NCBI GenBank assembly: GCA_963971405.1
Contig: OZ020486.1
Span: forward strand, 2,232,001-2,296,000
Source: Psococerastis gibbosa
Lineage: Eukaryota > Arthropoda > Insecta > Psocodea > Psocidae
Length of the DNA stretch: 64,000 nt
Direction: 5' to 3'
In this document: positions 4,839 to 48,870 of the stretch, piece by piece
How positions within the stretch are numbered: the first letter of the stretch is position 1
Layout of the letters: the number at the start of each line of letters is the position of its first letter
The notes under the pieces: generated by a model
Told to the model about the DNA's origin: nothing
Seen by the model: the letters and a program-made list of their open reading frames with translations, nothing else
The model's database searches: none
Translations under genes and position numbers: made by a program

Positions 4839-4984
4839 ATTATTGAGCCTGAGAAATGACCGAAGTGAACCCGGCCGGGGAGGCTGCCGCTGCAGTGCCT
4901 TCTAAGCGTCGAAGCCGATACATCAATATGGGGCGTACTTCAACATGTTTCAGAGTATTCTCTGCTACAGACTCGTCTTCTGAA
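4839..4984 (+). CDS. Zinc-finger gene, exon with start codon
   Basis: The acceptor is CTTTACAG at 4831-4838, followed by 17 nt of 5' UTR and the ATG at 4856. There are 43 codons (MTEVNPAGEAAAAV...), ending in ...SSSE at donor GTGAGT (4985), phase 0. The segment contains KRRSR, a small basic cluster. Confidence 0.8.
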
Positions 4985-7900: not shown

Positions 7901-10900
7901 GATAAAAAGATTCCGCAGAAAAAAGTAGTTTTTAGTCATTTTTCATGAAAATGGAGTCTTCATTTATTTTCCCCCAGAAACACACTATCAAGCGACCTAT
8001 TGAGTATGTATACAATGGTTCACATTAATTACGACTGCAATATACATAATGTGAGTTTAAAGAAAATCGTTGGAGCCGTGTTTTGATAAATCATTTTTTT
8101 AGTAGCATTTTTGGGTTAAAAGTTAGAATATGAGCACCTAAATACTGTTTCTATACGTATGACTAATGAAAATATGGCTGTGGCCGTACGACACAGTATA
8201 TATAACGTTACGCTAAGTAAGCTGGTAGCAAGATAAATCCGAGTAAACAATACTTTTATAGCCATATGCAATGTTCGAAGATATGCGCATGTCTTACATT
8301 AGTTTCGAAGGCAATGACAATTAAATCAAGCATTGTATAATTTTAATTTTTTGAAATATTTGTGCAGGTGACAGAGGCCGACCTGTTTGGGGCTATACCT
8401 AAGTACTCGAGGGCACAAGGCCGACCGTTTAAGGGTTTCCAAGACGACATAGCAAATATTTTCAAGTAAGTTTCTTGTTATTGCTTACCAATTTATACGT
8501 AGGCTAGTATAAGGAAAGCTTTGTGATGGTCGAAATTTTCGATTCCGAGATTTCAACGGATTTACACGTTTTCAGGTCCCAGGAACCCAACAAAGTGGTG
8601 TCTGTCTGTCTGTGCATCGATTTCCGGGCAAACTACTCGGTCGATTTTGATGAAATTCGGCATGTAGGTTCACGAAAATCATACCTCAGGACCAATTTTT
8701 TTTATTTGGGGCTAACTCAATTTGGGGGGGTTTTATTCTCAAAAAACTCAAAAAAAACGTCAAAAAAATTATTCCCAAAAACTGCTCCAACGATTTCTTT
8801 TAAATTCTCATATATTTCATATATTGTAGTCGTTATTAATGTTGACAAAATGCGGGGGGTCGCTTGCCCCTTGATAGTTTGTTTGTGGGGGTAAAAAAAT
8901 AAAAATAACTAAATTTTAATGAAAGATGACTAAAAAATAATTTTTCTGCGAAGCCTTTCTATCGATGATTTCTACCTTCAGGCATGTTTTAGGTATTAAA
9001 TTGAGTAACGAAACCGGATAGGTTGCTTTCCAAAAAAAAATATTTGGTTTTGCGCAAAACATTATTTGTTGAAAAAATGATAGAAAAAGTGACGTCAGGT
9101 GCTACGTCGATGGCTCTGAGTGCTACTATTGGTTTCTCTAGACCCTTTCCTTTAATGAAGGACTATGATCTTGCGGATCTCAATTTAACTGCTATAAACA
9201 ATAATAATATTGACCATATGTGGAAAGCGATAAGGGACAACATCAGCCATGAGAGTAATAGGTAAAGATGGACGGGAAGCAAAAGCAGATTGGATGACAG
9301 ACGAAATCATGGAACTGATCAAGCTAAGACGTAAAGCGAAAAGTGATGGCACTGAAAAAGGCGAGAGATTATACAAAACACTGCGAAACAGAATAAATCG
9401 AGAGTCAAGAATAGCAAAAGAGAATCACTACCAACGACAGTGTGATGAAATTGATCGTTGTATGGAAAGTGGCAATGTCGAACAAGCATATGCAAGAGTT
9501 AAAGTATTCTTTAAGAGTAGAACAGGAAGATCTGGGACCATGCAAGCAGAAGATGGGAAAATTCTTTTCGATTACGAGAAGGTCTGCGGTAGATGGAAAC
9601 AATATCTAGAATCTCTCTATTGTGGAAATGACGATAACATTAATATTGATCTAGAGAGTGAAAATGAGCTAACGGACATGGAAGGTGAGTTTGGTGATAG
9701 TATACTTAGATCTGAATATGACGAGGCAATAAAAAGACTTAAATCAAGAAAATCACCTGGAATCGACGAGATCCCTGCTGAACTGATCCAGAACTGCGGA
9801 GAAGCAAGTAAAAGTAGAAGTTTCAAAATGATAACTAACGCAAACGACTCGGGGGTGATACGCGATGATTTTAAAAAGTGCCTAGTAATAACACTGCCGA
9901 AAAAACAGGGAGCCATAAAGTGCGAAAATTTTCGAACTCTCAGTCTGATATCACATGCGTCTATAATCTTAACAAATAACTTATACTATAGTATTGAAGA
10001 GAATAGAACCGACTATAGAAAGAATACTCACTGATGACCAGTTCGGCTTCAGACGTGGAAGAGGTACCAAAGAAGCTATATTAGCTTTGCGACAACTTTC
10101 AGGAAAAATACTAAATAAAAACAAAAACACTTGTGGCATTTATCGATCTAGAGAAAGCTTTTGGTAAAGTATCGTGGGAAAAACTATTTGAAGTCCTGAA
10201 AAAAGCCAGTATAAAATACAAAGACCGAACAATTATCAGAGCCTTATACAAAGAATACATAGCGGTCATCAGATGCGGAAATGCAGAAGACCAAGCCAGA
10301 ATAAAGGCAGGGGTAGGGCAAGGCTGTTCATTGTCTCCAATACCGTTCAACTGCTATATACAGTTTGCTCTGGAAGAAATGAGAGAGGCACTCCAAGATA
10401 CCACTGGTATAAGGATGCAAGGAGAAAAAATCGATATGATCCGTTTTGCTGACGATATAGCATTAACTGCTGATAGTGAAGAAAAACTCACAAGAATGCT
10501 GTACTAAGTACCTATAACATGAAGTTAAACGTAAGCAAAACCGAAATTATGGTGATCACCAAGGCGGGGGCTCAAGCAAACGTAACTATCGACGGTGCTG
10601 CAATAAATAGGGTGAAATGCTTTCCATACCTAGGCAGCAAAATAGCACAAGAAGGAAAGTCATCCCAGGAAATATCCGGTCGAATACACTTAGCCAGACT
10701 AGCTTTTAACATAAAGTCAATGATATTCGAATCTAACAACATCGACTTTGATATAAGGAAAAGACTTCTCAAAAGTGTAGTGTGGAGTGTGCTCTTGTAA
10801 GTGAAACATGGTGCATTTACGAACATGACAAAAATAAACTGGAAGCCTTTGAGTTGTGGTGCTACAGATGAAACTTGAAATTCCCATGGAGAGACCACAT

Positions 10901-13900
10901 AACCAACGAAGAAGTACTCCATAGAATAAATGAAAAAAAGATCTATTGTGGCGACCATTTCAGCAAGAAGGGGCATATTTTGAGACATGAAGGGCTCCTC
11001 AAGAACATAATTGAGGGTATGGTTGAAGGCTTAGGTTTTTAGTTAGTTAGTTAACCTAGAAAATCCTTGAAACCTTGACTGCAGAAATGAGGGGCATAGC
11101 GTTCAAGTTACTCTGACTACAGGTTGCTGCAAGCATGTACAGCTTATTAGTCAGTCGACCACTATCTTCTTGCAATACTGTGCTGAACAATCTGAAGTGG
11201 CGTGGGAAGATGGAAAACCTACTGTAAACCATTTGTTCCATTACCAAAGGAAATAACCACATGTTTTCTCATTGAATGTGAGACTTCGTCTCCTAAAGAA
11301 TTTGTTTCAAATTTGTGAATGCCATTTTATTGCCTTTGTTATAGAACATCCAACGCGCGATCCCGTATCGATGACAAAGTCCTGGAAGCCATCTTGAAAA
11401 TGGACAAACTGAAGGGACGCGATATTGGGCCCGGACCAAGTAAGCTATTAGTTTCATAATGTAAACAAACTATATTTAAAATAAGTTCTATTCGCAGCTC
11501 CTGCCGCGGTATGATTGGAAAGTCAATAATTAGCAATTATTGCTAGTTTAGTGACCTCAAAAGAATAATCAGGTGAAAAATATAGAACTGTAACAATATG
11601 AATCTTTATGAAGAGTATTTAGAGGTGAAGTGAAACCTGGAACAGGGCGGACAGTAGCATAGCTAACACGATGCCCGGGCATAGATGGTCGTGGGTTCGA
11701 GTCCCACCGTGTCCAGTTTTTCTTGACTCTCCATTTTCCTCCTGAGGTGCCTCTTCAACCGCAGTCAATATAATTTCTAAAAAATGTGAAATATTGTAAC
11801 AGTGGTAGATAGAGTGTTCAGTGTCCCACGCCAGTAACATTGAGAAAGTAAACCGCTTGACCACGTAAATTATACAATTTCATTTTAATCAAAGCGCTTT
11901 TTTGTCATGTATCCGCCGAAGACCTTATCGGACACCCCCACTGCGCATTACTTTTTACAAATCACATTTTTCATAAAAAAAATATCCATGTCCATATCCA
12001 TCACTCGTCTAAAATGTAGCATCTCTCTGAAGTAGCGCTCCTCTACATTTTGGTGCAAGATAATTATGTGGCCGTCACCAACACAGATAGCTGCAGCAGT
12101 TTTCTTACTTCTTTCTCCCGACGCCACCCACAACCAACCGTTTCTTTTTTAGGTTAGATAGTTCTATAATTGTGGCCATTCCGTGCGTAGACGCACATAT
12201 CATTTCAAATTTAGAGGAACATTTCTGCTGGGATATTGTTGATGTAGCTCTACTATCGATATTTCATATTTTAATTTAATTTTTATACACTTGAAAGGCT
12301 TTCCCCTCCAATCGTTTTTGCATTGTTTATTGTATGTTGTTTTCTTGTAGTTCCTGACCCAGGACCGAACTTCAGACTTCCAAAAAGTGAGAAAGCCTTA
12401 CATACGCTGCTGGGCCAGATCAAATTACCAAAGAAAGAAAATGGAGAAAAACTTTCTGCGAAGGTACTGTATTCATGCGTGTATTTCCTTCCATAACGTT
12501 ATAGCTATGTTCATAAAGTAAAATAATAATAATTGAATAACAATTAAGTAACGACATCTTGTCAGGGATATTAGAGGGATTTTCAAATTAGTTTTATTTC
12601 TCCCATGTGGTAAACGAAATTAGAGGATATGGGAAAAACTGAAAGAAAGAAAAAATTTAATCCAATTAACACAATCAAAAATATAACTCTGTATCCCACA
12701 AATTAGTAATAAGAATAAAGAACCGGTCCGAGTTTACTCGAACATGCTTTCCAATTTATCAAAATTAGTAGATAGAGAAAATGAGTAATTTCATGGTAAA
12801 TAATTTTCCTATGGTTAAATTACCGATGTCCTGGGGGGGGGGGGGGGGGGGGGTTGTCCACCTGACGTCACTGGAGGTGAGGTAAATTCTAGATAGGTCA
12901 GACCAACACATTACCACACAGCAATACTGGCAGGGCACGCAATGCATTTGAGCGTGAATTTTCTATCATTTTTGCTTTCCAATTTATACGTAGTATAAGG
13001 AAAGCTTTGTGATGGTCGAAATTTTCGATTCCGAGATTTCAACGGATTTACACGTTTTGAGGTCCCAGGAACCCAAAAAAGTGGTTTTTACGAAATGTCT
13101 GTCTGTCTGTCGTTCTGTCTGTCTGTCTGTCTGTCTGTGCATGGATTTCCGGGCAAACTACCTGGCCGATTTTCATGAAATTTTGCATGTAGGTTTACAA
13201 AAATCATACCTCGGGAACATTTTTTTTATTTAGGGCCAATTCAATTTGGAGGGGTTTTATTCTCAAAAAAACGTCTAAAAAATTATTTCTCAAAAACGGC
13301 TCCAACGATTTCTTTTAAATTCTCACGCATTGTAGTCATTATTAATGTTGATACAATGCGGGGGGTCGCTTGCCCCTTGATAGTTTGCTTCTGGAGTAAA
13401 AAAATAAAAATAACTCAATTTTCATGAAAAATGACCAAAAAATCATTTTTCTGCGAAACCTTTGTATCGATGATTTCTAACATCAGGCATATTTTAGGTG
13501 TTAAATTGAGTAACGAAACTGGACAGTTTGCTTTCCCAAAAAAATATTGGGTTTTGTGCAAAAAAATATTTTTTTGAAAAAATGAAAGCAAATTCACGCT
13601 CAAATGCATTACGTGCCCTGCCATTATTGCTGTGTGGTAATGTGTTGATCTGACCTATCTAGAATTTACGTCACCTTCAGTGACGTCAGGTGGACCCCCC
13701 CCCCCCCCCCCCCCCCCGTGATATCCGAAATTTAACCATAAGAGAATTATTTAACATGAAATTAATCATTTTCTCTCTCTACTAATCGATAAATTGGAAA
13801 GTATGTTCGAGTAAACTCGGACCGGTTCTTAAAAAAAAATCATTTTTTTTTACAAAAACAAGTAATTTTTTGGGAAAGCAACCTGTCCGGTTTTGTTACT

Positions 13901-16900
13901 CAATTTAACATCTAAAACATACCTGAAGGTAGAAATCATCGATTTAGTAAATTATTAAGATTAAGTAAATCGGAATTCATCCATGGCTTCAAGAATTTAT
14001 GCTTAATTTTAACAGTCTTCTCATTTGTATTCTTCTTTATCAAACTTTTAATGCAATTTATAAACGTTGCTTTGTCAGCATTAATTTCTTTCAAAAATGC
14101 ATTCCATGAAAAAAAATTTAAATCACTTTGTAGCTGAGTTTAGTTAACACTATTTTCAGTAGAAGTTTTGTTAGTCAAATGCGAATTTGGTGCTCTGGGT
14201 TTAGTATTAATAGTCAACAATGTGGCATCATGGTCAGTAATATCACATTTTATAATAAAACCTAATACAGTATTATCGCCATTAATATTAGTAAACATAT
14301 GGTCAATGCATGTTTTGGTATTACCTTGAGTTCTGGTAGGAGAATTAATATAAGGTTTAAAACCGTATGACGCCAAGATCGTTAAGTAGTTTTGTATGTT
14401 TAAGTAGTTATCTGTAAATTAAGATTTATATCACCCGTAAATATGAAAGGATTATTTTTATTATCTAAATGTAGGTCACCAAGAAATGTATCCAAAGACT
14501 CAACAAATGATTTTTGACATCTTGGTCTTGGCGGGATTCGAACCCACGATCTACGCCTAACTGGGGCGTCGTCTAAAACGCTGGACCACAAGCCCCTCGA
14601 ATCCCGCCAAGCCCAGTTTTTTTCCATATCCTCTAATTTCGTTTATAACGAGGAGGTTACCTCTTCAACCAAAGTTAATTTGATGTCAGTGTTATATATA
14701 CCATATAATACTACAACGTAATAACTCCTATGTTGTGTCCAGTGGGCAGGGTTACTAGCACGGTTTTGGAAGTACAGTAATAGGCAATCTCTTAAGACAG
14801 CGGTTCTCCAATGGAATCTGGGACAGTAAATAGTCAATAGTGTCTTTAAAACGAATAATACTTACTGTGTTGTATCGTATTATATTTGCCTGTCCCATCG
14901 ATCAATTCAGTGCTTTGGGATAGGGTAACCCGAGTGCCCCCACTATAAACGTTTTTTTTTACAATGTCGATTTTCACATTAAATACTGATCCAAAATAGC
15001 CGATAAATAATAAAAAATTCTCCTCTGCATTTCGATATATGACATGTGGCCTTAACTAATACGATTGATTTTTAACACTTATAAGGCTTTTCTTCCTCCG
15101 ATTGTCTCTAAATTATGTTGGAACATTAATTACTCACGTTTTGCATCTTTGCAGGAAGCTACAGTGTCTGTAGTGGGACAGCTTGTGAGAGCGCTGGACC
15201 CGAGTATACGTCAGGACCCCATAAAGAATGCTCGGATGGTGTTTCAGCTTGGCAGGTACGTGAGCACGACCGAAGTCTTAAGAACTAAAGAAGTGACTTG
15301 GAGAAAAGCGAAAAGTTTGTCCTCAGCTGTGGAGGCGTGGTCATTCATTGCTGAGACTTCGCAGTCCATTCTACCAACCGTTCACCTTTTACCCGCATTA
15401 CGTAAAGTCTGGTCGCATTTGATATTTGAATAGGGGGCGGGGACCACATTTCACGCAGCTCCAGCTCCAGAACACGACGAAAGCCCCAGGCATGAGATAC
15501 TGGGAGGCTTGGGCTTAAAAGCCAGGCATTGGATAAAGTAATGTTCATCTTCAGTGGAGACTTCGCATTCCTAGTGTCCACTGAAGTTGTCTATCGCAAT
15601 CATTTGGGGAAAAAGTGTCGAGTCGCAATTGACAGATAACATGACGAGTATAGTAGCTGAATATTGATGAACTGATGTATGATGTAAGAACAATGCAATA
15701 ATAACGTACATAAGTTCATAGTTTGTTTTCCTAAAGCAGCTGTTGGCTTAACATATGCAAATACTTTATACTGTAGAAGCGTAGTTTATTTTGATATGTT
15801 TTATAAATGATGTTTAATTTAATTTCAGAGAAGTTGATAAAGCTGCCGAAGAGGTTGCAAGAAGGAAGGCCAATAACCAGAATGTCTTTCAGGAAATGAC
15901 CAAGGAAAATTTTAAGCTTACCCCAGAGATAATTGAGTAAGTCGTTTTCAGATATTTTAATTTTACCAACACCGTTGGAACGTTTATATTGCGATTAACA
16001 GTAAATCATTGCAATCGATGGCATTTCGATCTTTATATTCTGTCAAGATTGACCCTGTCGCAATACATTGAAATGTCAACTGGAAACAATTTCATACAGT
16101 CAAGGCTTTCTTGTAAATTAACTTATTGTAATCGGGGTTTAGCTTCATATTCAGTTGACACTTCAGAAATTACTATAGGGTAATACTAAAATTGTTGGCA
16201 TGGATCCCATAGTCTACATGACAATTTTTGAAACCTTATTATAATGTGTAGATTTATTTTATAACCAGTGAAATTATTATTTTCCCTAAAAAGCTTTACT
16301 TAGTAGGGGATAAAAATATTTTTGCTCATGAATTTAAGTTTGATGGTTAAAAAGAGGTTCATAATTATGATTTTGGAATGTGACGTTATTGTGATGCCGC
16401 GGAATAGCCGCCGGCAGTAGAAGTACTAGTATTGGTATAAGCAGAATACAGAATGTGACGAAATTGTTGAGTCACCCATATCTGCAGGCGTTTTGGCCCT
16501 TGTAATCCATTATTTTTTAATATTTAAAATTTTTTCATGCAAAAACATTGTTTAACTAAGCTTTCCCTATCTAGCATATTTTATTTTGGCAACTGTCAAG
16601 TAGCCTATTGAGGTGAAGAACCAGTACAATCCGGACTGATGGGCCGTGGTCTCAATGAAAGTGAACATGCAAACGTTTCGTCAACATCTGCGGTCGACAT
16701 CTTCAGTGGCGCTGCGCTTCGAAGGTTGTACCTCGGGGGCTCTGGGTAAGGGGCAATGGCGGATCCACGGGGGGTCAGGGGAGTCAAAAAAAAAACTTTA
16801 CTTTTCAACAAAAAAAATTACCTTTTAAACTCACAAAAAACTTGTGACCCTTGTGACCCCCTCCCCACCCTAAATTTTCGGCTGGATCCGCCCTTGGTAG

Positions 16901-19900
16901 GGGGTTGCGCACTGACCTTTATACCTATGTATACTCACTACTTGAAAGTAATGAAAACGAAAGGCTGATGTTCGCGGACGATACTACGCTCATCATAACT
17001 GGTCCTTCAATAGAAGAAACTGCGATAATGTGCACTAAACAGTTAGATGACATAAGACTCGAATTTGCCACACATGGGCTCTTGCTAAACGAAACAAAAA
17101 TGCAACTTACAGTGTTCTCTAACTTCCAACCTGAGCTTGACATATACCCACGCATAGCAGGACAACCGGTAACTGCGACCGACAGCGTCAGATTCTTAGG
17201 AATGCAAGTTGACAAGGACTTAAACTGGAATAAAAGCGTGGTTGAGCTATTAAAAAATAATAAAAATAGTGGCTTCTTTGTAGTCAGGCGCCTTAGCTCT
17301 GTGTGTCCTCCGGAAGTTACTCTCCAGGCCTACCACTCACTTGTAATGAGCAATATAAACTACGTCATATTGGCCTGGGAAGGGACCTCCGTAGGGAACA
17401 TGGACGCTGTAGAATAGAATAGAATAGAAAAATTTTTTATTACATCACACAGCCGTAGCCCTTATGTGTATAAATATTACATAATATAAAGCGAAAAAAC
17501 AACAACAACAAAAATTCCTACTGTTTATAGCCTATTGTAACTTCTTATTAAATAATTTAAATTTATAAGAAAAACCTACCTAACTACCAAAGAACAACGT
17601 AATATATAAATATGTATATCCTAACTACCATTCTTACAATAAAATTTGGTTACAAGTTCCTCTGAATAATTCCAAGCTTTGCATAAATGGATCTAAGGTG
17701 TCATGATCATTTAGTAAATGAGTGAGCCTGTTTATTGGAGAATTTATGGCTACGTCAATCCTGTTTTGCGGCTGGTAAAATAAGTTAAAATTTCTTGTTG
17801 GAAACTGGGGTACAATAAAATTTAGTTTGCTCAAGAAATTTTGATTGTGTTCTAGGCCATTTAATACTTTATAGATATATATGGCATCAGCAATTTTACG
17901 TCGTGTGCACAGACTCTTCGCCTCATATTTTTCTAACAGAGTAGAATATGGTATATATGTGGGATCAATTTTATCAAACTTTCTCGTCAAATATTTTAAG
18001 ATTTTTTTTGCACTTTTTCAATTTGTTTTATTTTGTATTGTTGTACTCAGGCTTCAAAAGAGGGGAGTGCGATGCATGCTAAAACTGGGACCCCGTGACA
18101 GTTGTCGCTCTCACTTCAAATCATTAAAAATCATGACAGCCCCAAGTCTGTACATATTTAGCTGCATCTTACATATCTTAAAGCCTGAGGTGTGGGGGAA
18201 ATTTAAACAAAACGGGGACACTCACACCTACAACACGAGGCAACGGGGAGACCTTGTAAGGCCAGCGCCACGCAGAGCCAAGTGTGAGCGACTGGATCCT
18301 ATACTACAAGGTTTCGCCTACCTTAGAAAGCTCCCGATTGAACTGAGAGCGGCGAGAAATGCTTCTAACTTCCCTAAATTGCTTAGAAACCATCTCTTAG
18401 AGAAAGCTTTCTACACTGTCACTGAGGCACTTGCACAATGACAATAACAGAACTACCTGATTTTGACGATATTCTGACGATTTTATCTTATACTTTACAT
18501 GTATTGTACAATTTAAAGGAAATAAATATTGTATTGTATTGTACCTGGACGTTGTTGTTGTTGTGTTGAGAGCGAGGATTTGTTCGCTCTCAACACATGT
18601 TCCTCTGGGGAATTTCCATTACCTTGTTTTTCACAATTGGCCGACGTCATCCTTTTTGTTGTTGTTTTTTTCAGCGCCGGACACCAGAGTTCGTTCACCT
18701 TTAAGCCTTCTTCCTTTCTTTTGAAATTGTGTTGGTGCTTGTATATTTCAATAGCTTCTCTGTGTAGTCTGGGAAAATATAAGTAGCCCGTGACAAAACA
18801 GTCGCCTGTTTGTAGTGCACCCATTGGCGTAAATAGGGGGTCCTGGGGGGGGGCTTCCCCCAGGTCCAACCGTAGGCCCCCCCCCCAGGATTTTTGGTGA
18901 CAAAGACGTTATGGAGGCTAAAGGCATTGTATCCTCAATATTGAAAGGAAATTAATTCTTAGTATGCTTATTTTACAAAAAAAAATCAACATATTGACCA
19001 AGTACTTTCACAGACAATATATTACTCAAAATGCTTAAAACCTAAATACTTCAGAGCTATTTTTTCCAAATTTTTCTCCGGGCCCCCCTCATCGGCGTTA
19101 TAATATCTCACTTGTACTCCTTGCAAACATTGGCGTAAATAGGGGGGTCCTGCCCCCCCAGAAGCACCCGTAGCCCCCCCCCCCCCCCAGGATTTCTGGT
19201 GACAAAGACATTATGGATGCGAAAGGCATAGTATACACAATAACAAAAGGGTAATTAATTCTTAGTATACGTATTTCACATGAAAGACATCATGAAAAAA
19301 TCAGTACTTTCACAAAAATATATTACTCAAAATGCTTAAAACCCCAATTTTTCAGACCTATTTTTTCAAAATTTTTCTTCGGGGGAGACCCCCGGGCCCC
19401 CCTCAGTGGTAGGTTTATTTGTCTGTAAAATCGCAACTGTACTGCTTGCAAAATGCGTAAAACCTCCCTAATTTGGGACTACTCACCAATTTTTTTCTCC
19501 GGGGGAGACCCCCGGGCCCCCCTTTCTCCAGGTTGGAACATTTGTAAAACCTCACTAATTATCAATTATATTTTTTTTTTCTCCAGGGGGGACCCCCGGG
19601 CTCCCTTTTCTCCAGGGTATAATATGCGTAAAACCTCACTAATTTGGGTCCATTTATCGATTTTTTTTTTTCCGGGGAATGAGGTCTTGGGGTCCTAAAG
19701 CCTCCCCAGAAATTTTGGGAATTTACGCCAATGAGTGCACCGTGTGTCCAGATTGTGTTAGTCCGTCCTCAGCGATCGCAGACTTCTCCGGTTGTAGACG
19801 GCGGCAGCTTCGTTTATGTTCTTCTATCCTCGTATTTACGCTGCGTTTAGTCGTACCTATGTATACTTCACCACAAGAGCAAGGAATTCGGTACACACCG

Positions 19901-22900
19901 GCTGATGTTAATGGGTCTCTCTGATCCTTGGCTGATCTTATCATGCTTTGGAGGTGTTGCGTAGGCTTGAACACTGTTTTGATGTTATGACGTTCGAACG
20001 GCCCATCAGCCCGGTTTCTACTGGTTCTTCATTTGACGCCGGCCGTGAAAGCCTTTGCAGTTACATAGCCTATTGAGACTCTCAAGAAAGGCACATTTTT
20101 GACTAAATAGAGGTTATTTTCAGTACTGCATGCATCCTTTATTAATAAAATAAGTACGGTATTAGTACAGTGCTGACTAAAAAAGAAAGTCTAGGTTACC
20201 TGAACATGAATAATCAATTTGACGGTCTTCGCACATTTTCGGGCTACCAAGTCCCCCTGAAATTTTTCGGTCACAAAGCGATTTGGATTCAGATTAGGGG
20301 TTCCACTATTAATTGACAGTCACATTGATTGGCTATTGGAGAAATTGCAATAAATGTCTTGTTTCAGGACGCTCGGGTTTAATGAAATTCCCCTACTCGA
20401 TGACGATGACTCCTCTTTCTCCGAATTTGTAAGTATATAGCACGGAAGACCGCTGAGTTAGCTGTGAAATTGCATGTTAGAACTGTGTTGCTACCATATC
20501 TACTATTGAAACCTGAACCTGAAACCTATATTGGACTAATTGGCAGGTGTGTATCTTAGAACATGCAGGATTGTGTGTCATCATGTAACAACAATTAGAG
20601 GCAGGAGAATTAGAGGAAGACAAGCAAACTAGCAGTTTAGTACGTCATCAACGTAGGACAGGCAAAGGTTCGTGGGTGGCTTTGTGAGTGAGTTTCTGAA
20701 GCTAAACAGTAACAATATTTTGTAGGGCGTGCTTGTTTTAAATAGAAATCTTAATTTTCCGATCCACGGTTAGGAACACGTAACGAACTCTCGACTGGTC
20801 GATTACAGTATTTACGATAGAAAAGCGGTTGTATAAAATCGTGTAATTCACTTAATCGTATTTTTTAGTGGCATAATATTATCGGTGAGAAAACACACAT
20901 TTTCGGTATACGCTTGTGTATATGAAGTTTTCAAAAGAATAATGTAATAGGTTTGTGGCTGTGGACCGAGAAATTGATTAATTTCGTCAAAACAAAATCT
21001 GTCCGGCGTCCGTCTTTTATTTAGAAAATATTTTGAATTCCGTTCCCTTCATATTGTGATTTTTAACTATAGGAAAGTGATTTTGAGGAGGAAGCTAAAG
21101 CTTCTGGAAGAAATACCGGCAAATGGGAAGACCTCACCGAAAGTGACTGCAAGCAAACTCCAATGGACAGCCTGGTCTCTCGTTTCTTGAAGCTCACAGT
21201 CATTGGCAAATCTCCCAAGTCGTGTACGTATTCAAATAGAAAAAAAAATTGTTTTTATTTTCCATATAGGCGAATTTTGCAATTTCTAAGGTTAGGTATT
21301 TCATAGTAAATCCTCCGAAATAACTTTAAAATCCCTGGTGGTGGTGCTTCATCACTGCTTGTTTGTGGGTGTGACAAATGTATTATCTATAACTTTGCTT
21401 CTACTGCAGATCAGGCTTATCCACCCCGAAGTCCAGAAGGTAGGCCCGGCGAGCGACCTTGACCTTAACTTTAACCCTCAAAAACAGGCTAATTGGGAGT
21501 GCAGCTACCATAAAGGGAAACCCTAGCAGTGAAATCTTATACAACGTAATCGAGTGGATAAATTGTCTCTGGTAGGCCTAGAAAGCGGTGACGTGACCTG
21601 CTTCATCATCATTCACCCCATTCGACAACTATAAATAAATAATGTCTTTTTTATATTAATAAACCAACCTTGCGGAGTTAGGCAATAAAGCTCTCGCTTA
21701 CACTACTCTTGGAAGGAGACCACCTGCTTTGCATGCCCGCCGAAACATGGGAAGCTCATAGCTCCACTTTAAATCAAGTCACTTGCGTTGTTACTTGCCT
21801 AAAATTAGAAGCTAGGTGCTTTCTTTGAACGTAAAAACTTCCTTTGGGGGCAATGTCCACTGCAATTTCCAGAACTGTTACAACCTCTTATTAGTTAGTT
21901 TAATGCCAGCATTATACAGGGTCTGTCCGGAAAGTAATGTCAGTGAAGTTTTTTACGGAGACTGTAAGCGCAAGCGCGCGCTTTACAGGCTCAGATTTTG
22001 GTGGGGGGATCTGGCAACAAGTTCCAACAAGCGTCAGCTGGCTACCGATCGTAGTAATGGTCACATCAGTTGTTCCATGTGAGTCGGTACAGTAACCCGG
22101 TGCAAAATGAAAAAAAGCGATCGCTTGAGCAACGGATGGTGATGAAGTTTTTTTGTAAATCTGGAAAGTGCTGCGGAAACCATTATAATGTTGAAGAAGG
22201 CTTTCGACGACTATTGCCTTTCGGGAAGGCAAATTTTCCGGTGGAACAAGGCCTTCGCAGAAGGTCGGGAAGACGCCAACGACGAGCCCCGAGCTGGATG
22301 ACCATTAACCTCCACTATTGTTGTCTTTGAAGGTTTTAGACTTGTGCCACCGGAAAATTTGCCTACCCGAAAGGCAATCGTCGCCGAAAGCCTTCTTCAA
22401 CATTATAATGGTTTCCGCAGCACTCTTCTCCAATTTTACACAAAACTAGATTGCCAACGATTTTTTTCTTGCACCGGGTTACTCTACCGATTCACATGGA
22501 ACAATTGATGTGACCACTACTACGATCGGTAGCCAGCTGACGCTTGTTGGAACTTGTTGCCAGATCCCCCCCCACCAAAATCTGAGCCAGTAAAGCGCGC
22601 GCTTGCGCTTACAGTCTCCGTAAAAAAAAAAAAAAAAATTCACTGACATTACTTTCCGGACAGACCCTGTGTACGAAATAATGCTACCACATATTCCAGT
22701 GCTGTACTCAGGCAAGGCGAGACTTGATCATGATGGGGTGCATGGGGCAACTGGTATTAATGCCACCTGGTTAAAATTTGAAATTTCTACTTGTATCATG
22801 ATGTCCTATGCTCACACCATTTTTCCTTCTCCCTTACAGTTGCGGACTGGCTGAAAACAGAGCCAAAAGTGTTTCAACGTAACAAAACCCTGCCCGGCGT

Positions 22901-24203
22901 AGTACACACCCTCGTTGGCGATGAGACAAAGAAGACATACCGCAGTGGTATCAAGGTGACTAATACAGGTGTGCAGTATTATGGCCTCTGTGATGAAGAT
23001 ACGCTGCCTGCCGGACTCAAGAATGCCAAGACTGACAAGAATATTGCAGTTAGTGGAGACCAAGTGGGTGCAGCTGCAGACTCTGGTGGGGTAGATAAAG
23101 TTGTGCGTGGTGGTGTGTCTATGGACAATAGCAATGTAGATGGTTATAAGGCTGGTTGTTGGGTTGTTTCGACTGCTGTGGGCCGGTTTCAGTGTCCTGT
23201 TAGTGAGTATTCGGCTGGTCAGAGTAGTCAGTTGAAGGTTCATGTGGCTGTTAAGCATGGGAGTGGCAGTGTCGAGGTGGAGGAATGCCAGGGTACTGGT
23301 GGGACAACTGGGCACAGTTTACATGCAGCAGATGTGCATAGATCTGAAAATTTTAAAAAGTTCGAGTATCCCCACTGTGAGTTTAGGACTGTACAGAGTG
23401 GTGATTTAAAACTCCATGTAGCAGGGGTCCACGGTTATGAAGAGGATAAGAAACATAAGTGTCCCCACTGTGATTATAGGACTGTAACGAGTGGTAGTTT
23501 AAAAATAGATGTAGCAGGGGTCCACGGTGGTGAAGAGGATAAGAAACATAAGTGTCCCCACTGTGATTATGGGACTGTAACGAGTGGTAATTTAAAAGTC
23601 CATGTAGCAGCGGTCCACGGTGGTGAAGAGGATAAGAAACATAAGTGTCCCCACTGTGATTATAGGACTGTAACGAGTGGTAATTTAAAAGTCCATGTAG
23701 CAGCGGTCCACGGTGGTGAAGAGCATAAGAAACATAAGTGTCCCCACTGTGATTATAGGACTGTACAGAGTGGTAATTTAAAATTCCATGTAGCAAGTAT
23801 TCACGGTGGTGAAGAGGATAAGAAACATAAGTGTCCCCACTGTGATTATAGGACTGTACAGAGTGGTAGTTTAAAAATACATGTAGCAAGTATTCACGGT
23901 GGTGAAGAGGATAAGAAACATAAGTGTCCCCACTGTGATTATAGGACTGTACAGAGTGGTAGTTTAAAAATACATGTAGCAAGTATTCACGGTGGTGAAG
24001 AGGATAAGAAACATAAGTGTCCCCACTGTGATTATAGGACTGTACAGAGTGGTAGTTTAAAAATACATGTAGCAGGGGTCCACGGTGGTGAAGAGGATAA
24101 GAAACATAAGTGTCCCCACTGTGATTATAGGACTGTAACGAGTGGTAATTTAAAATTCCATGTGGTAAGGATCCACGGTGGTGAAGAGGAAAGGAATCAT
24201 TAG
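4839..24203 (+). CDS. Eleven-exon gene for an unrecognised nuclear-type protein ending in a C2H2 zinc-finger array
   Basis: Coding exons: 4856-4984, 7240-7521, 8368-8465, 11345-11439, 12351-12463, 15155-15255, 15829-15936, 20368-20428, 21073-21223, 21410-21439 and 22840-24203. All junctions are AG/GT and all phases agree, giving 2532 nt, or 843 aa plus stop. An upstream acceptor at 4838 implies a non-coding first exon outside the recognised part. The N-terminal 140 residues are Lys/Arg-rich with acidic clusters (PRQRKPRKSK, KKKNRKKIKK), typical of nuclear proteins. The middle part has no domain I recognise; an acidic stretch (LLDDDDSSFSEFESDFEEE) lies near residue 325. The last exon holds ten C2H2-type fingers, seven of them with all four ligands. 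DNA binding is inferred from the fingers; the role is unknown. Introns are filled with repeats. The stop is a nonsense change in a further finger unit. Confidence 0.82.
5042..5182. mobile_element. PIF/Harbinger-like MITE, 141 bp
   Basis: It is flanked by TAA target duplications at 5039-5041 and 5183-5185. The termini are perfect inverted repeats beginning GGCGGGGTTTCC, continuing imperfectly through the TGACGTA/CAATTG region. A 3-bp TWA-type duplication with GG...CC ends fits PIF/Harbinger. It lies in the first intron of the zinc-finger gene. Confidence 0.75.
5530..5755 (-). mobile_element. tRNA-derived SINE (family 2)
   Basis: Read on the minus strand, an A-box-like TAGAGTAGTGGTA and a B-box-like GGTTCGAGCCC form a tRNA-type head at about 5750-5688. 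A body follows that contains TCTGGCCATGCTTCA and AAACTCCGCTAGGTTGGCTTA. Related bodies occur at 21655-21770 (-) and 44726-44850 (+). Confidence 0.65.
6222..6400 (-). repeat. tRNA-like SINE relic plus a dispersed repeat
   Basis: The block at 6225-6268 contains, on the minus strand, GGGTTCGAGTCCCA, a B-box preceded by GCGATAGATCTT as in the other SINE heads. The block at 6275-6400 matches 35915-36035, sharing TTGTTTCC, GAATTTT, CCATTGGCA and ACAAGCTGAGACAAGCTTA-like words. The class of the second block is unknown. Confidence 0.5.
7240..7521 (+). CDS. Zinc-finger gene, exon 2 (basic/acidic region)
   Basis: The acceptor is TCATTGCAG and the donor GTAAGT at 7522, with 94 codons, phase 0 on both sides. 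It is highly charged: DEVPIPRQRKPRKSK, then an acidic DEDYETGEDFEGG stretch, then KKKNRKKIKK. It looks like a nuclear localisation or chromatin-type disordered region; no domain was recognised. Confidence 0.85.
7738..7795 (+). repeat. Short dispersed repeat (TTTTCCCTATC family)
   Basis: The segment TTTTCCCTATCACAAAGCAC, followed by GAATTGATCGATGAGAC, recurs at 29117-29155 (+) and, inverted, at 14883-14930. It is too short to classify. Confidence 0.4.
8368..8465 (+). CDS. Zinc-finger gene, exon 3
   Basis: The acceptor is TTGTGCAG and the donor GTAAGT at 8466. The frame VTEADLFGAIPKYSR continues exon 2 in phase 0 and leaves phase 2. An R1 repeat starts only about 16 bp beyond the donor. Confidence 0.83.
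8482..9091 (+). repeat. R1 dispersed repeat, 3' part lost at an RTE LINE junction
   Basis: It begins with a GCTTACCAATTTATACG variant of the R1 start and includes the shared GGAAAGCTTTGTGATGGTCG, GTCTGTCTGTCTGT and GGGGGTCGCTTG segments. R1 homology stops near 9091, just before the usual TTCACGCTCAAATGCATT, where LINE sequence begins. The repeat sits in the intron directly after exon 3. Confidence 0.8.
9092..11052 (+). mobile_element. RTE-like LINE, 5'-truncated and frameshifted
   Basis: The endonuclease is missing. The open frame from about 9155 runs through a region with LKSRKSPGIDEIPAELIQ. Reverse transcriptase motifs follow: FRRGRG (frameshifted), AFIDLEKAFGKVSWEKL, GVGQGCSLSPIPFNCYIQF and the catalytic IRFADDIAL. 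The thumb region is KCFPYLGSKI, then a C-terminal domain with frameshifts after 10800. The tail is a short TTAG repeat at about 11037-11052, typical of RTE-type elements. At least three frameshifts or stops inactivate it. It lies in intron 3 of the zinc-finger gene, in the gene's sense orientation. Confidence 0.87.
11345..11439 (+). CDS. Zinc-finger gene, exon 4
   Basis: The acceptor is TTGTTATAG and the donor GTAAGC at 11440. It accepts phase 2 and reads (K)TSNARSRIDDKVLEAILKMD, followed by KLKGRDIGPGP. It leaves one base. It has a predicted helical, charged composition; the family is not recognised. Confidence 0.82.
11648..11860 (+). mobile_element. tRNA-derived SINE (family 1 relative)
   Basis: The head at 11648-11716 has an A-box-like TAGCATAGCTAACACGATG and a B-box GGTTCGAGTCC, with GGACA...TGTCC ends that could pair. 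The body has CTCTTCAACCGCAGTCAAT, which matches the family-1 SINE body at 14665 and 24720. Expression as a real tRNA is unlikely because the anticodon arm is poor. Confidence 0.7.
12020..12330 (+). repeat. Dispersed repeat sharing CTCCTCTACATTT and CCTCCAATCG
   Basis: The pair of segments GCTCCTCTACATTTTGG and ACACTTGAAAGGCTTTC, followed by CCTCCAATCG, recurs in the same order at 14995-15120 and 62795-63045. This suggests one family of about 100-300 bp. Termini were not resolved. Confidence 0.5.
12351..12463 (+). CDS. Zinc-finger gene, exon 5
   Basis: The acceptor is TTTCTTGTAG and the donor GTACTG at 12464. It continues as IPDPGPNFRLPKSEKALHTL and ends ...KLSAK in phase 0. Confidence 0.82.
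12717..13946. repeat. R1 cluster: partial minus, full plus, partial minus
   Basis: 12717-12973 is the 3' third of R1 inverted (AAGAACCGGTCCGAG first). 12974-13830 is a complete plus copy, from GCTTTCCAATTTATACG to CGGACCGGTTCTT. 13831-13946 is an inverted internal piece (GGGAAAGCAACCTGTCCGG). The two outer pieces can pair with parts of the full copy. Long G and C homopolymers lie at 12832-12853 and 13696-13718. Confidence 0.8.
13980..14521 (-). mobile_element. LINE endonuclease fragment (Jockey/CR1-like)
   Basis: Minus-strand frames give FIFTGDINLNLQ and then ASYGFKPYINSPTRTQGNT, CIDHMF and CDITDHDATL. This is the order of the apurinic-type endonuclease in ORF2 of non-LTR elements. The reading frame breaks near 14390, and a SINE abuts it at 14522. 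No RT domain follows. Confidence 0.75.
14522..14740. mobile_element. Composite SINE: inverted tRNA-Thr-like head joined to a second SINE
   Basis: On the minus strand 14596-14522 gives a tRNA-like head with GGGGCTTG, TGGTCCAGC and GGTTCGAATCC. The anticodon stem ACGCC/GGCGT encloses loop CCAGTTA, so the source may be tRNA-Thr. At 14597 it joins CGAATCCCGCCAAGCCCAG on the plus strand and continues into the SINE body (CTCTTCAACCAAAGTTAAT). The same head-to-head arrangement recurs at 24530-24785. Confidence 0.75.
14883..14930 (-). repeat. Short dispersed repeat (TTTTCCCTATC family), inverted copy
   Basis: The reverse complement contains CCCTATCCCAAAGCACTGAA, followed by TTGATCGATGGGACA. It matches 7738-7795 and 29117-29155. 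Confidence 0.4.
14995..15120 (+). repeat. Dispersed repeat, second copy of the 12020-12330 family
   Basis: CTCCTCTGCATTTCGATA, GACATGTGGCC and ACACTTATAAGGCTTTTC, then CCTCCGATTG, match the other copies. The copy ends about 35 bp before exon 6 of the zinc-finger gene. Confidence 0.5.
15155..15255 (+). CDS. Zinc-finger gene, exon 6
   Basis: The acceptor is CATCTTTGCAG and the donor GTACGT at 15256. It reads EATVSVVGQLVRALDPSIRQ, then DPIKNARMVFQLG, and leaves two bases (AG). Confidence 0.83.
15829..15936 (+). CDS. Zinc-finger gene, exon 7
   Basis: The acceptor is TTAATTTCAG and the donor GTAAGT at 15937. It accepts phase 2 and reads (R)EVDKAAEEVARRKANNQNVF, then QEMTKENFKLTPEII. The composition is helical and charged. 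Confidence 0.83.
16600..16745 (-). mobile_element. Penelope-like element fragment
   Basis: The block from TAGCCTATTGAGGTGAAGAA to CTCGGGGGCTCTGG is shared with 40475-40610. The minus strand encodes KMSTADVDETFACSLSL, a segment that recurs in the other copy. The GAAGAACCAGT...CTGATGGGCC motif also occurs next to the GIY-YIG Penelope-like frame near 20000, which links these pieces to that family. Confidence 0.55.
16754..16896. mobile_element. hAT-like MITE, 143 bp
   Basis: The termini are CAATGGCGGATCCA and TGGATCCGCCCTTG, inverted repeats with one mismatch. They are flanked by GTAAGGGG (16746-16753) and GTAGGGGG (16897-16904), an 8-bp target duplication with one mismatch. Eight-bp duplications are the hAT signature. 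There is no coding capacity. Confidence 0.65.
16905..18542 (+). mobile_element. LINE 3' half, split by another LINE
   Basis: The first part (16905-17411) begins inside RT with LMFADDTTLII and continues through RFLGMQVDKDLNW, SSVCPPEV and WEGTSVGNMDAV. The second part (18046-18436) resumes at LRLQKRGVRCML and continues through KIMTAPSLYIF and YNTRQRGDLVRP to a stop. The 3' end has an ATTGT repeat at 18525-18542. The 38850-39150 copy reads straight through the split point, which proves the interruption is an insertion. A 4-bp TGTA lies on both sides of it (17408-17411, 18042-18045). Confidence 0.88.
17412..18045 (-). mobile_element. Second LINE 3' end inserted in the first
   Basis: The minus frame 17990-17634 is a LINE C-terminal region with LCTRRKIADAIYIYKVLNG and NSPINRLTHLLND, followed by a stop. 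The tail is a TTCTA repeat, visible as GAATAGAATAGAA at 17412-17428. It is 5'-truncated and carries only the end of ORF2. Confidence 0.85.
18543..20060 (-). mobile_element. Penelope-like element 3' part (GIY-YIG), interrupted
   Basis: The minus strand from about 20030 reads HNIKTVFKPTQHLQSMI, then GVYRIPCSCGEVYIGTTKRS, the GIY-YIG endonuclease with its Cys pair. It then reaches SGHTVH and is broken by an insertion at 19733-18822. Downstream, 18813-18600 holds the usual post-GIY-YIG segment REAIEIYKHQHNFKRKEEG. Frameshifts show it is inactive. The reverse transcriptase domain is not present. Confidence 0.85.
18822..19733. mobile_element. hAT-like non-autonomous element with 8-bp target duplication
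   Basis: It is flanked by identical AGTGCACC at 18814-18821 and 19734-19741. The inverted termini are CATTGGCGTAAAT and ATTTACGCCAATG. A second internal start (CATTGGCGTAAATAGGGGGG) at 19130 indicates a tandem or nested copy. The right part holds three or four degenerate units of about 80-90 bp containing GCGTAAAACCTCACTAATTT and a CCGGGGGAGACCCCCGGGCC palindrome. No transposase was seen. Relatives lie at 59011-59735 and 59966-60716. Confidence 0.8.
20368..20428 (+). CDS. Zinc-finger gene, exon 8 (acidic)
   Basis: The acceptor is CTTGTTTCAG and the donor GTAAGT at 20429. It reads (E)TLGFNEIPLLDDDDSSFSEF, a short acidic exon ending in phase 0. Confidence 0.8.
21073..21223 (+). CDS. Zinc-finger gene, exon 9
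   Basis: The acceptor is TTAACTATAG and the donor GTACGT at 21224. It begins ESDFEEEAKASGRNTGKW and ends ...LTVIGKSPKS plus one base (phase 1). Confidence 0.82.
21410..21439 (+). CDS. Zinc-finger gene, candidate 30-nt microexon
   Basis: A good acceptor (CTTCTACTGCAG) and donor (AAG/GTAGGC) bound exactly 30 nt. It enters and leaves in phase 1 and adds YQAYPPRSPE before VADWLK, so the frame holds with or without it. It may be constitutive or a cassette exon. It is predicted from splice signals and phase only. Confidence 0.55.
21655..21770 (-). mobile_element. SINE family 2 body fragment
   Basis: On the minus strand, segments near GGGAAGCTC, the GCATGCAAAGCAGGTGG region and AACTCCGCAAGGTTGGTTTA match the body of the SINE at 5530-5755. 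The tRNA head is absent. It lies between the microexon and the last exon of the zinc-finger gene. Confidence 0.5.
21915..22671. mobile_element. Palindromic, internally deleted mariner element
   Basis: The ends are mariner-type YACAGGGTCTGTCCGGAAAG, with TA at 21913-21914 and 22672-22673. The arms run inward about 330 bp as near-perfect inverted repeats, around a loop of about 100 bp near 22250-22345. Each arm carries the 5' end of a transposase reading frame. The right arm, on the minus strand, encodes a mariner-like helix-turn-helix segment (MLKKAFGDD-like, then WHKAF-like, with breaks). No catalytic domain remains. It is a foldback derivative with no coding capacity. Confidence 0.88.
22840..24203 (+). 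CDS. Zinc-finger gene, terminal exon with ten tandem C2H2 fingers
   Basis: The acceptor is CTCCCTTACAG at 22839 and the exon reads (V)ADWLKTEPKVFQRNK... to a TAG at 24201-24203. After about 110 residues without a recognised domain come ten finger units, C-x2-C-x12-H-x4-H in form. Finger 1 (CPVS) and finger 2 (YPHC) have lost a Cys, and finger 3 has Asp for the first His. Fingers 4-10 keep all ligands. The linker GGEEDKKHK replaces the classical TGEKP. Unit-to-unit changes are confined mostly to T/Q, N/S and V/I/F at a few sites in the finger helix. The unit is 31 aa. Confidence 0.85.
23350..24190 (+). repeat. 93-bp tandem repeat encoding zinc fingers
   Basis: Nine near-identical 93-bp units (31 codons) run in frame with the terminal exon. 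Synonymous sites are as uniform as the rest, so the array looks recently duplicated or homogenised. The opposite strand is open for 199 codons only because the repeat keeps it so. Confidence 0.92.
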
Positions 24204-24206
24204 TGT

Positions 24207-24791
24207 AAAAAACTGGGCTTGGCGGGATTCGAACCCACGATCTACGCCTAACCGGGGCATCGTCTTAACCCCTGGACCACAAGTCCCGACTAGTCCAGTA
24301 ATCGCCAAATCCTCTACTTATGCTCTAATTGACATGATTCGTGTTGCTATACAGGTTAGTACAACTACACATCTGTCTAACCGAACAAGTCTGTGAGCTT
24401 ACTTAATTGCATAAAGGCAATGCTTTACTCAATACATTGCAGGATTATATGGTATATATAACACTGATATCAAATTAACTTTGGTTGAAGAGGTTCGTTA
24501 TAAACGAAATTCGAGGATGTGGAAAAAAAACTGGGCTTGGCGGGATTCGAACCCACGATCTACGCCTAACGGGGGGGTCGTCTTAACCGCTGGACCACAA
24601 GCCCGACAAGTCCCGCAATCGCTAAATCCTCTACTTATGCTCTAATTGACTTGATGACGAATCCCGCCAAGCGCAGTTTTTTCCATATCCTCTACTTTCG
24701 TTTATAACGAGGAGGTTACCTCTTCAACCAAAGTTAATTTGATGTCAGTGTTATACACCATATATACCATATAATACTGCAATGTATTAAA
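24207..24791. mobile_element. Multi-part SINE insertion in the zinc-finger array
   Basis: A 9-bp duplication CATTAGTGT flanks it (24198-24206, 24792-24800). The order is: minus head (24212-24285), a spacer, a minus SINE body (24445-24520) with its head (24530-24605), then a plus SINE starting at GAATCCCGCCAAGCGCAG (about 24660) and running to 24791. The heads have GGTTCGAATCC B-boxes and GGGCTTG/CAAGCCC ends that could pair like a tRNA-Thr acceptor stem. It separates the last intact finger from a decayed finger unit. Confidence 0.8.
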
Positions 24792-24800
24792 CATTAGTGT

Positions 24801-24965
24801 CCCCACTGTGAGTTTAGGACTGTATTTATGTTTCATTATTAATGTTTTAAAAAAAGCTTGTAGCAGGTTTACACGGAGGCCGTAGGAAGTAAATAGTTAC
24901 AAGACTTTAGTATACTGATTGCGATTACAGTGCTGAGAGACGTGTTCGGTTACAGAAACATATTG
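24801..24965 (+). pseudogene. Decayed zinc-finger units beyond the SINE
   Basis: CCCCACTGTGAGTTTAGGAC at 24801-24820 continues the finger unit in register. TTGTAGCAGGTTTACACGG at about 24858 matches its second half. A further stretch encodes a finger-like tail ending KHIECHDG (about 24940-24976). Stops and gaps separate them, and they lie after the TAG at 24201, so they are 3' UTR or dead sequence. Confidence 0.7.
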
Positions 24966-25014
24966 AATGTCACGATGGACCCAATCAAGTTACTGTTTAA
25001 TGTAATGCAATGTA

Positions 25015-25020
25015 AATAAA
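25015..25020 (+). terminator. Candidate polyadenylation signal of the zinc-finger gene
   Basis: AATAAA lies about 810 bp after the stop, beyond the SINE and the decayed fingers. This placement would put the SINE in the 3' UTR. No transcript evidence is available. Confidence 0.35.
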
Positions 25021-34639: not shown

Positions 34640-35260
34640 ACTAGGGAGAGGAAACCTTGGTTTATATAGGACTGGGAGCGGGGGGAGGAGGGGGTGGGAG
34701 GGGGCGTGGCTGGTTACCTATTCCTAACCTACTAGCTAGATCTATTAGAGGGGATGATTGTGTGAATGTTATGTCGTTTGTTAATTTTTCCCTATTGTGT
34801 AAAGCTCTTTTGATTTCAACATTTTCAAAAAAATTTAAAGTGTAACTTTTCTTTATTTTGTGTAGGGCTGTCCAATTGTGAGGATCGAATGTGTGGTTTT
34901 CCGAGTTAAGGTGTTTCGCGAATGTGCTGTTGGTGTTGGTGTCTCCTATACCTGCTATATGTTCTCTGACCCTAGTTTTAAAGCTTCTGCCTGTTTGGCC
35001 TATGTAAATTGCGTTACAATCGTTACAATTTAGACGATAAACTCCATTGCCTTTTTCTTTTTCTGGTTTGGTTTTGCAGTTCATGAGTTTATTGGCCAAA
35101 TTGTTGCGATTGTACGGGGCTGGTGTTTTGTCTGTTGTAGAAGAAATGAGGTTACTAATTTTTTCTGTGATTTTTTCTACGTATTGTATCCTGAAATATG
35201 ATTTATTGGTTACCGGGTTTAAGCTCCCTGGGGGGTAAATTAGTTTGAGGTTGTGTTTGA
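34640..35260 (-). mobile_element. Penelope-like element 3' part with GIY-YIG endonuclease
   Basis: The minus frame is open from about 35235 to 34662. An upstream linker (YPPGSLNPVTNKSYF, then ISNLISSTTDKTPAPYN) leads to GVYRLNCNDCNAIYIGQTG. This is GIY-YIG with the paired Cys usual in Penelope-like elements, followed by RSFKTRVREHI and the HLNSENHTF His segment. The frame ends in a poly-Pro run caused by C-rich sequence. The RT domain is absent, so the copy is 5'-truncated. It differs from the copy at 18.5-20 kb. Confidence 0.88.
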
Positions 35261-35914
35261 TATATACATAAACTTTTATTGTATAGCCTATAAGAAATTC
35301 AACATTACAATTTTAAGGTATCACCTGTATTATTAACATTTAGCAGTATTGCAAGGCCTACGCGTCAAGTTTGGCAAATATATACGTTCTATTATATATA
35401 TACGGTCTATTTTTTTACACCAATATAAATATATATGGATTTCGTTATAGGCCACATAAAACTGTCCTAGATACGGCTAAAACCTAATAACTTTAGACGC
35501 TCACTTTGCCTTATTTAAGCGGGTAAGCCTATTTTCTCCGGTTTAGGCCTATTTAATCTACTAATGCATTGTACTTGGTAGCTAATGTCTTATTATACCG
35601 CCATCATTGAATTATTTGAAGGACTTTTCTTCGATATAGACCAATATGCAAATAATAAGTGGCCTATTAAGTCTTAATTGCTCACTGCCAAACACCTTAT
35701 ATGTATTTTCGGTCATATTATATAGTTAAATACTTTCCAATAATTTCGTTTTTAAAAAAGATACCCAAAATTTCACTCCTACCTTCGATGCCGCTCAGCT
35801 CAGACTAACTCTGCTAAGCGCCCACAGCCCAGGTGCATGGCCCGGGTTGCTGACTAGACGATTGCCCCGTCAGCATGGGAACCCAGCATTGGCAGTTGGC
35901 AGGGACGTAACTAT

Positions 35915-48574: not shown

Positions 48575-48870
48575 CTAACTTTATGGTGGATTTGTAAAGG
48601 TTAATGGCACTGATATAGTACTATTTAACGAAGGGTTAGTTGTACTTACATTACCTTCTGTGTTAATAGCCCCCTTCCCCTGACACAGCAGACAATGAAA
48701 CAACAACTAAACCTTTGTTAAACTAACTTTATGGTGGATTTGTAAAGGTTAATGGCACTGATATAGTACTATTTAACGAAGGGTTAGTTGTACTTACATT
48801 ACCTGCTGTGTTAATAGCCCCCTTCCCCTGACACAGCAGACAATGAAACAACAACTAACCCTTTGTTAAA
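48575..48870. repeat. 148-bp tandem duplication with internal hairpin
   Basis: Units 48575-48722 and 48723-48870 differ at only a few bases, and a 12-base start of a third (CTAACTTTATGG) follows. Each unit holds an inverted repeat: TTTAACGAAGGGTTAGTTGT pairs with ACAACTAA(A/C)CCTTTGTTAAA, and CTGCTGTGTTAA overlaps GACACAGCAG. The unit is probably a small palindromic element duplicated in place. Confidence 0.9.

Follow-up and report, generated by a model that had tools for sequence, protein, structure and literature searches.

A concertedly evolving C2H2 zinc-finger array in the last exon of a probable arthropod gene from Psococerastis gibbosa

Gene model and its surroundings

The window analysed here, a 64,000-nt stretch of the Psococerastis gibbosa genome, yields a gene model with ten coding exons on the plus strand, from 4856–4984 to 22840–24203, which when spliced give 833 codons and a stop. 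The joined exons (2502 nt) contain no internal stop, their phases agree and GT-AG borders are found throughout. The model is based on genomic sequence only and exons 1–9 were selected by eye for open frames, so that their openness is partly built in and independent support is confined to the agreement of phases and splice borders. Coding exon 1 (4856–4984, plus strand, aa 1–43), which starts with MTEVNPAGEAAAAVPSKRRSRY, has an open frame and a GT donor, and a splice-acceptor-like sequence lies 5′ of its ATG, making a further upstream non-coding exon plausible. Such an exon could account for the eleven given in the preliminary description, of which ten were found as coding exons. Coding exon 2 (7240–7521, aa 44–137), characterized by the motif PIPRQRKPRKSKT..GEDFEGGSSDEWHPPE, and exons 3 (8368–8465), 4 (11345–11439), 5 (12351–12463), 6 (15155–15255), 7 (15829–15936), 8 (20368–20428) and 9 (21073–21223) all lie on the plus strand, with GT-AG borders and open frames. 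Exon 10 (22840–24203, plus strand) comprises a non-finger lead, relic fingers, a nine-unit finger array and a TAG stop, and coincides exactly with the segment singled out in the preliminary description. The nine exons upstream of it encode 379 aa rather than the 430 residues stated there.

The N-terminal part was searched as a 423-aa query consisting of exons 1–9 and the start of exon 10. It matched no Pfam family at E up to 10 (HMMER filters drop most matches above 0.1), SET/PR, KRAB, ZAD and BTB domains included, and no significant chain in PDB, where a death-domain protein was dismissed as insignificant (E = 0.75). As far as Pfam and PDB are concerned, the N-terminal part is thus indeed unrecognised. 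A search of its own genome, in which the best candidates were scored, gave 11 matches to the query, ten of which are its own exons, the remaining one being located on another contig, at C13:17884719–17884922 (54% identity over aa 40–107). The 50 kb around this match contain two exon-2 copies in the same orientation, both disrupted (C13:17881067–17884980); they are 81–82% identical to exon 2 where aligned, and over some 280 bp each is interrupted by a stop or by several gaps. Between them lie degenerate finger-like segments, 32–40% identical to the array. Judged by its sequence, C13:17881067–17884980 is a small cluster of dead paralogs, and the presence of exon-2 copies beside relic fingers suggests that the exon-2 motif probably existed with fingers apart from the homogenised array. 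The upstream exons had been described as single-copy, which is nearly right, the two disrupted copies of exon 2 being the exception. Comparison of exon 2 with the better copy yielded pS of 0.16 and pN of 0.09 over 43 codons only, which is too short for a test. The main evidence of constraint is that the C13 copies are broken while the 2502 nt of the window gene are open, in exons that were chosen for open frames. Searches with both halves of the protein (tblastn) found no relative in viral contigs, each half matching one pattern only.

The window also contains various mobile-element remnants. Reverse transcriptase fragments are located at 2184–2807 on the minus strand (RVT_1, E = 4.1e-13) and at 16857–17417 on the plus strand (RVT_1, E = 1.1e-4, below Pfam's cut-off). 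GIY-YIG-type endonuclease fragments, each perhaps from a Penelope-like element, are found on the minus strand at 19723–20028 (by eye) and 34662–35312 (Pfam, E = 2.4e-5), and intron 9 harbours a palindromic element with ends that match by eye (21920–22675), perhaps a derivative of a mariner-type DNA transposon. Two segments on the plus strand, 39405–39944 and 43120–43437, are probably exons of a syntrophin gene: alpha-1-syntrophin is the PDB match of the PDZ part (E = 1.2e-8), and the second piece, which has no match in Pfam, resembles a syntrophin PH part. At 48575–48882, a 148-bp unit is repeated in tandem (2.1 copies, 98% matches). TTAGG is the usual telomere repeat of arthropods, and in the genome as a whole (TTAGG)5 occurs 13,701 times in forward and 7,614 times in reverse orientation, including a long run on contig C1, whereas the reversed control gave counts of 0 and 1; this agrees with an arthropod source.

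The finger array and its edges

Tandem Repeats Finder reports a repeat with a period of 93 at 23365–24206 (9.1 copies, 93% matches, 0% indels), in which nine units of 31 codons each can be delimited (23367–24203, plus strand), in agreement with the preliminary description of a 93-bp unit. The reading frame of the exon-10 array is open across 473 aa. The 93-bp period also keeps open a long antisense frame (293 aa) across the array, which was not taken as a gene. The units follow the C2H2 pattern Cx2Cx12Hx3-5H, and seven of the nine (units 3–9) have all four zinc ligands, units 1 and 2 each lacking one: the first Cys is replaced by Tyr in unit 1 and the first His by Asp in unit 2. Eight of the nine unit DNAs are distinct, with units 6 and 7 being identical, and units 2 and 8, which are six places apart, differ at 3 nt. 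The canonical finger linker has seven residues and that of the array has nine. The linker GGEEDKKHK, noted previously, is exact in units 2, 3 and 5–8, and is found with one substitution in unit 1 (GYEEDKKHK) and unit 4 (GGEEHKKHK), while unit 9 ends with GGEEERNH and the stop.

Exon 10 matched zf-H2C2_5 in nine stretches (E = 1.2e-59), and the best 25 of its 33 matched Pfam families are finger-type or represent generic matches inside fingers. The best match of known structure is CTCF (E = 1.2e-21), which we regard as a generic C2H2 match, since the aligned CTCF fingers are unlike each other whereas those of the array are near-identical. The AlphaFold2 model of exon 10 is beta-rich (mean pLDDT 56.3, single-sequence input) and that of two fingers is poor (mean pLDDT 43.5, input of six near-identical sequences), neither displaying the beta-beta-alpha fold. 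Given these inputs, the models are treated as uninformative, although they do not help the finger reading. The array DNA was located once in the genome (409 Mb, 68 contigs) by a search that scored the best candidates only.

Beyond the array, decayed fingers are found on both sides. Upstream, a relic finger of the form CPVS..H..H, with Ser in place of the second Cys, is apparent in the translation of 23193–23258 (plus strand); local DNA alignment of this stretch to the unit gives a score of 36 against a maximum of 35 in 200 shuffles, which is weak on DNA alone. Ten fingers had been counted previously, of which nine are the repeats, two with an incomplete ligand set, and the tenth is probably this degenerate finger. 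A second upstream relic, shortened (CQGTGG...SLHAADVH), is possible by eye in the translation of 23286–23339 (plus strand). Downstream, the protein ends at a TAG stop in the last codon of unit 9 (24201–24203). This stop is included in the left copy (24198–24206, plus strand) of a 9-bp direct repeat, CATTAGTGT, whose right copy is located at 24792–24800 (plus strand). The two copies represent the target-site duplication of a foldback-type insertion of 585 bp (24207–24791) with inverted arms of 25–49 nt and two tRNA-Thr-like genes. Since TAG is present in both copies, the stop is probably older than the insertion. A relic tenth unit, in which the frame breaks, follows the insertion (24798–24895, plus strand; local alignment score of 66 against a maximum of 35 in 200 shuffles), implying that the array was formerly longer. 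A possible relic of an eleventh finger, YTDCDYSAERRVRLQKHIECH, perhaps the old C-terminus, can be recognised from translation and sequence at 24911–24973 (plus strand), although its DNA alignment is not significant (35 against a shuffle maximum of 36); it is followed by TAA at 24998–25000 and AATAAA at 25015–25020. The preliminary description suggested a rapidly expanding or gene-converting array; rapid expansion is not supported, since both ends of the array are eroding and its C-terminus has been truncated by a stop and an insertion.

The foldback insertion itself looks like a mobile tRNA-containing repeat. Its tRNA-Thr-like genes have the anticodons ggt and cgt, and a related sequence, identified by eye, is present at about 14521–14730, with a tRNA-Thr-like copy at 14523–14595 (anticodon agt).

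Homogeneity and variation among the units

Within the Cys-to-His core (17 codons) of the nine units, none of the 500 same-residue codon comparisons shows a synonymous difference, whereas 22–69% of such comparisons do so in 18 further arrays from this genome. Likewise, the mean nucleotide identity of the core is 0.92 in the nine-unit array and 0.41–0.69 in the other 18. These arrays, with at least three fingers each, come from protein-match loci (26 matches at 20 loci, the nine-unit array being one locus and excluded from the 18) and were thus chosen by similarity to the array protein and not at random; some are few-fingered, the smallest comparison including 18 codons. For whole 31-codon units, the Nei-Gojobori estimates are 0.079 for pS and 0.097 for pN. 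The earlier wording, almost no synonymous divergence, therefore holds exactly in the core but somewhat overstates the case for entire units. The period-93 tandem structure and the lack of synonymous differences in the core led us to reject a chance repeat. A local cluster of similar arrays was rejected as well, because the genome search yielded the array DNA a single time and identity to the array protein is only 30–40% in the 25 other protein matches; the arrays at the 19 other loci mostly have ordinary linkers of the TGEKP type. A genome search with zf-H2C2_5, in which the best 150 of 263 candidates were scored, gave 11 matches, five of them inside the array; the six outside it contain, by eye, no runs of near-identical units. 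Two zf-H2C2_5 matches on contig C12 are presumably lola-like finger exons.

The units also appear to have exchanged segments. In 8 of the 10 pairs among codons 10, 13, 16, 20 and 21, all four combinations of the two commonest alleles are present at some nucleotide pair, the exceptions being pairs 13–16 and 20–21. This pattern suggests exchange among units as the simplest cause, although recurrent mutation could mimic some of it. Together with the silent identity of the core, the four-gamete patterns support the earlier view of a homogenised array, its units exchanging segments. Unequal exchange would be expected to leave the centre homogeneous while the edges decay. Concerted evolution of the nine-unit array is clear.

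Among the nine units, 17 of the 31 codons vary, but codons 10, 13, 16, 20 and 21 are the only ones at which two or more amino acids each recur in at least two units. Helix positions were counted back from the first zinc-binding His, which is position 7 in the standard numbering. Codons 10, 13 and 16 correspond to helix positions −1, 3 and 6, codons 20 and 21 lie between the histidines, and helix position 2 is an invariant Gly. Positions −1, 3 and 6 are named as the main DNA contacts of C2H2 fingers in PMC2604467. Recurrently variable codons are enriched at contacts (Fisher P = 0.008), and so are the inferred events, with 8 of 27 falling in contact codons for all nine units (binomial P = 0.018), 6 of 14 for units 2–8 (P = 0.005) and 6 of 20 for units 2–9 (P = 0.036). 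These P values are optimistic, because the 14–27 events come from linked units and the contact set (−1, 2, 3 and 6) was chosen by the analyst. The concentration of variation in a few helix positions, noted previously, is thus seen as clustering at −1, 3 and 6. By contrast, a dN/dS-type comparison among the units revealed no nonsynonymous excess under neutral simulation: the nonsynonymous to synonymous ratio against the consensus is 23:4 for all nine units (20.7 nonsynonymous expected under neutrality, P = 0.22), 11:3 for units 2–8 (10.8 expected, P = 0.60) and 17:3 for units 2–9 (P = 0.33). Variation is therefore concentrated at contact positions without an overall nonsynonymous excess. With nonsynonymous change at the neutral level, the case for selection comes from the clustering (P of about 0.005–0.04), which is only suggestive of selection on contact positions, and relaxed drift fits as well.

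Explanations, known systems and possible function

The data are best explained by an intact gene with a concertedly evolving finger array, a reading in which we have good though not full confidence. An alternative is that the gene is dying and that exon 10, free of selection, is a neutral minisatellite homogenised by replication slippage or unequal exchange, with the clustering at contacts going back to a few founder units. The neutral ratio of nonsynonymous to synonymous change is consistent with this, as are the loss of two zinc ligands, the stop, the foldback insertion and the decayed fingers past it, and the fact that both paralogous exon-2 copies are already broken. However, the 2502-nt model is free of internal stops, has fitting phases and retains every GT-AG border (its exons having been chosen for open frames), unlike the 81–82% identical C13 copies, which are broken within about 280 bp; every zinc ligand is kept in units 3–9, and the recurrent variation is not randomly spread over the unit. 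We therefore consider a dying gene unlikely.

About as unlikely in our estimate is that homogeneity simply reflects age, the array having arisen in a single very recent burst that would make continuing exchange unnecessary; this is compatible with an intact gene, and its odds overlap those of the preferred explanation. The near absence of silent differences in the core and the identity of units 6 and 7 would be expected from such a burst, but the units are chimeric, 8 of 10 codon pairs having all four allele combinations, which calls for exchange or repeated mutation, and the edge units are clearly more diverged. Finally, assembly is prone to errors in 93-bp tandem repeats, and collapsed or misjoined repeats might have produced a wrong copy number or unit order. 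We consider this highly improbable, as the array (837 bp) would fit into one long read, the assembly has 68 contigs and the one in question measures 50 Mb, eight of the nine units can be distinguished, and no frame break occurs in any of the nine.

Among known systems, the array works like those of PRDM9 and KRAB-ZNF proteins. Prdm9 undergoes concerted evolution with change at helix positions −1, 3 and 6, signs of which are also reported outside vertebrates, and it appears to be lacking in the Drosophila melanogaster genome (PMC2779102). The array shares with it the near-identical tandem fingers in the last exon, the concerted evolution and the variation at −1, 3 and 6 (PMC2779102), but it belongs to an arthropod genome, its N-terminus has no SET/PR or KRAB match, and its linker has nine residues instead of being of the TGEKP type. 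Vertebrate KRAB/poly-zinc-finger proteins likewise vary at the contact positions −1, 3 and 6, although the analysis in PMC2604467 concerns positive selection between duplicated genes, whereas here units are homogenised within one gene that has no KRAB match. The insect ZAD-ZNF proteins Nicknack and Oddjob, which localise to heterochromatin, are encoded by insect zinc-finger genes with turnover (PMC7655104), but no ZAD was matched here in Pfam. Hemipteran ZF271-like proteins are lineage-specific insect C2H2 proteins with varying finger sequence and length and with pseudogenes; as far as PMC6444547 describes them, they consist of finger arrays only and are partly tandem-clustered, in contrast to the single gene with nine further coding exons found here. 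The shuffling of these hemipteran arrays (PMC6444547) is the nearest case that the literature search gave. No homogenised finger array of this kind in arthropods was found among the titles and abstract openings searched in one open library, which is weak evidence of absence. By the Pfam domain test, the gene is PRDM9-like in its mode of working, yet it is not PRDM9, KRAB-ZNF, ZAD-ZNF or BTB-ZF, and its N-terminal region is uncatalogued.

Taken as an intact gene, the locus is probably a real, functional arthropod C2H2 gene with a final exon that behaves like a coding minisatellite. A single ancestral finger of 93 bp would have been multiplied in tandem, and unequal crossing-over and/or gene conversion, a process we infer from the sequence pattern, would keep removing silent differences from the central units, whereas units at the edges would exchange less, diverge and die. 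Most of the differences that have survived and been shuffled among units affect the helix residues responsible for DNA specificity; the array may thus keep altering the DNA motif that it reads, with selection being only suggestive. The seven complete fingers would bind DNA, the nine-residue linker may loosen the spacing of neighbouring fingers, changes at −1, 3 and 6 would shift the bound motif, and the basic/acidic N-terminal region may recruit chromatin partners. The protein would probably serve to bind DNA targets that shift over time, for instance transposons, satellites or heterochromatin. Insect ZAD-ZNF and vertebrate KRAB-ZNF proteins (PMC7655104, PMC6444547) provide the analogy that makes repeat or heterochromatin targets likely. 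That fast-changing repeats in particular are the targets of the array is a tentative proposal, with the balance somewhat against it. Most likely, the gene would encode a lineage-restricted DNA-binding protein involved in chromatin or transposon silencing. It is unlikely, though conceivable, that it represents an independently evolved arthropod genome surveyor resembling PRDM9, that is, one intact gene with its own uncharacterised N-terminus, whose motif is rewritten as its fingers evolve in concert, under pressure from either an arms race with repeats or meiotic recombination.

The evolutionary pattern of the array is clear, and its function is what we infer from it. Proteins in conflict with DNA targets that change can be recognised by homogenised finger arrays whose variation falls on the residues contacting DNA. 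The most familiar example is PRDM9, which determines where recombination takes place and, in mammals, has been linked to hybrid sterility. With a comparable array on an arthropod protein that lacks the PRDM9 domains, one could ask independently whether arrays of this type evolve in response to repeats or in the service of recombination.
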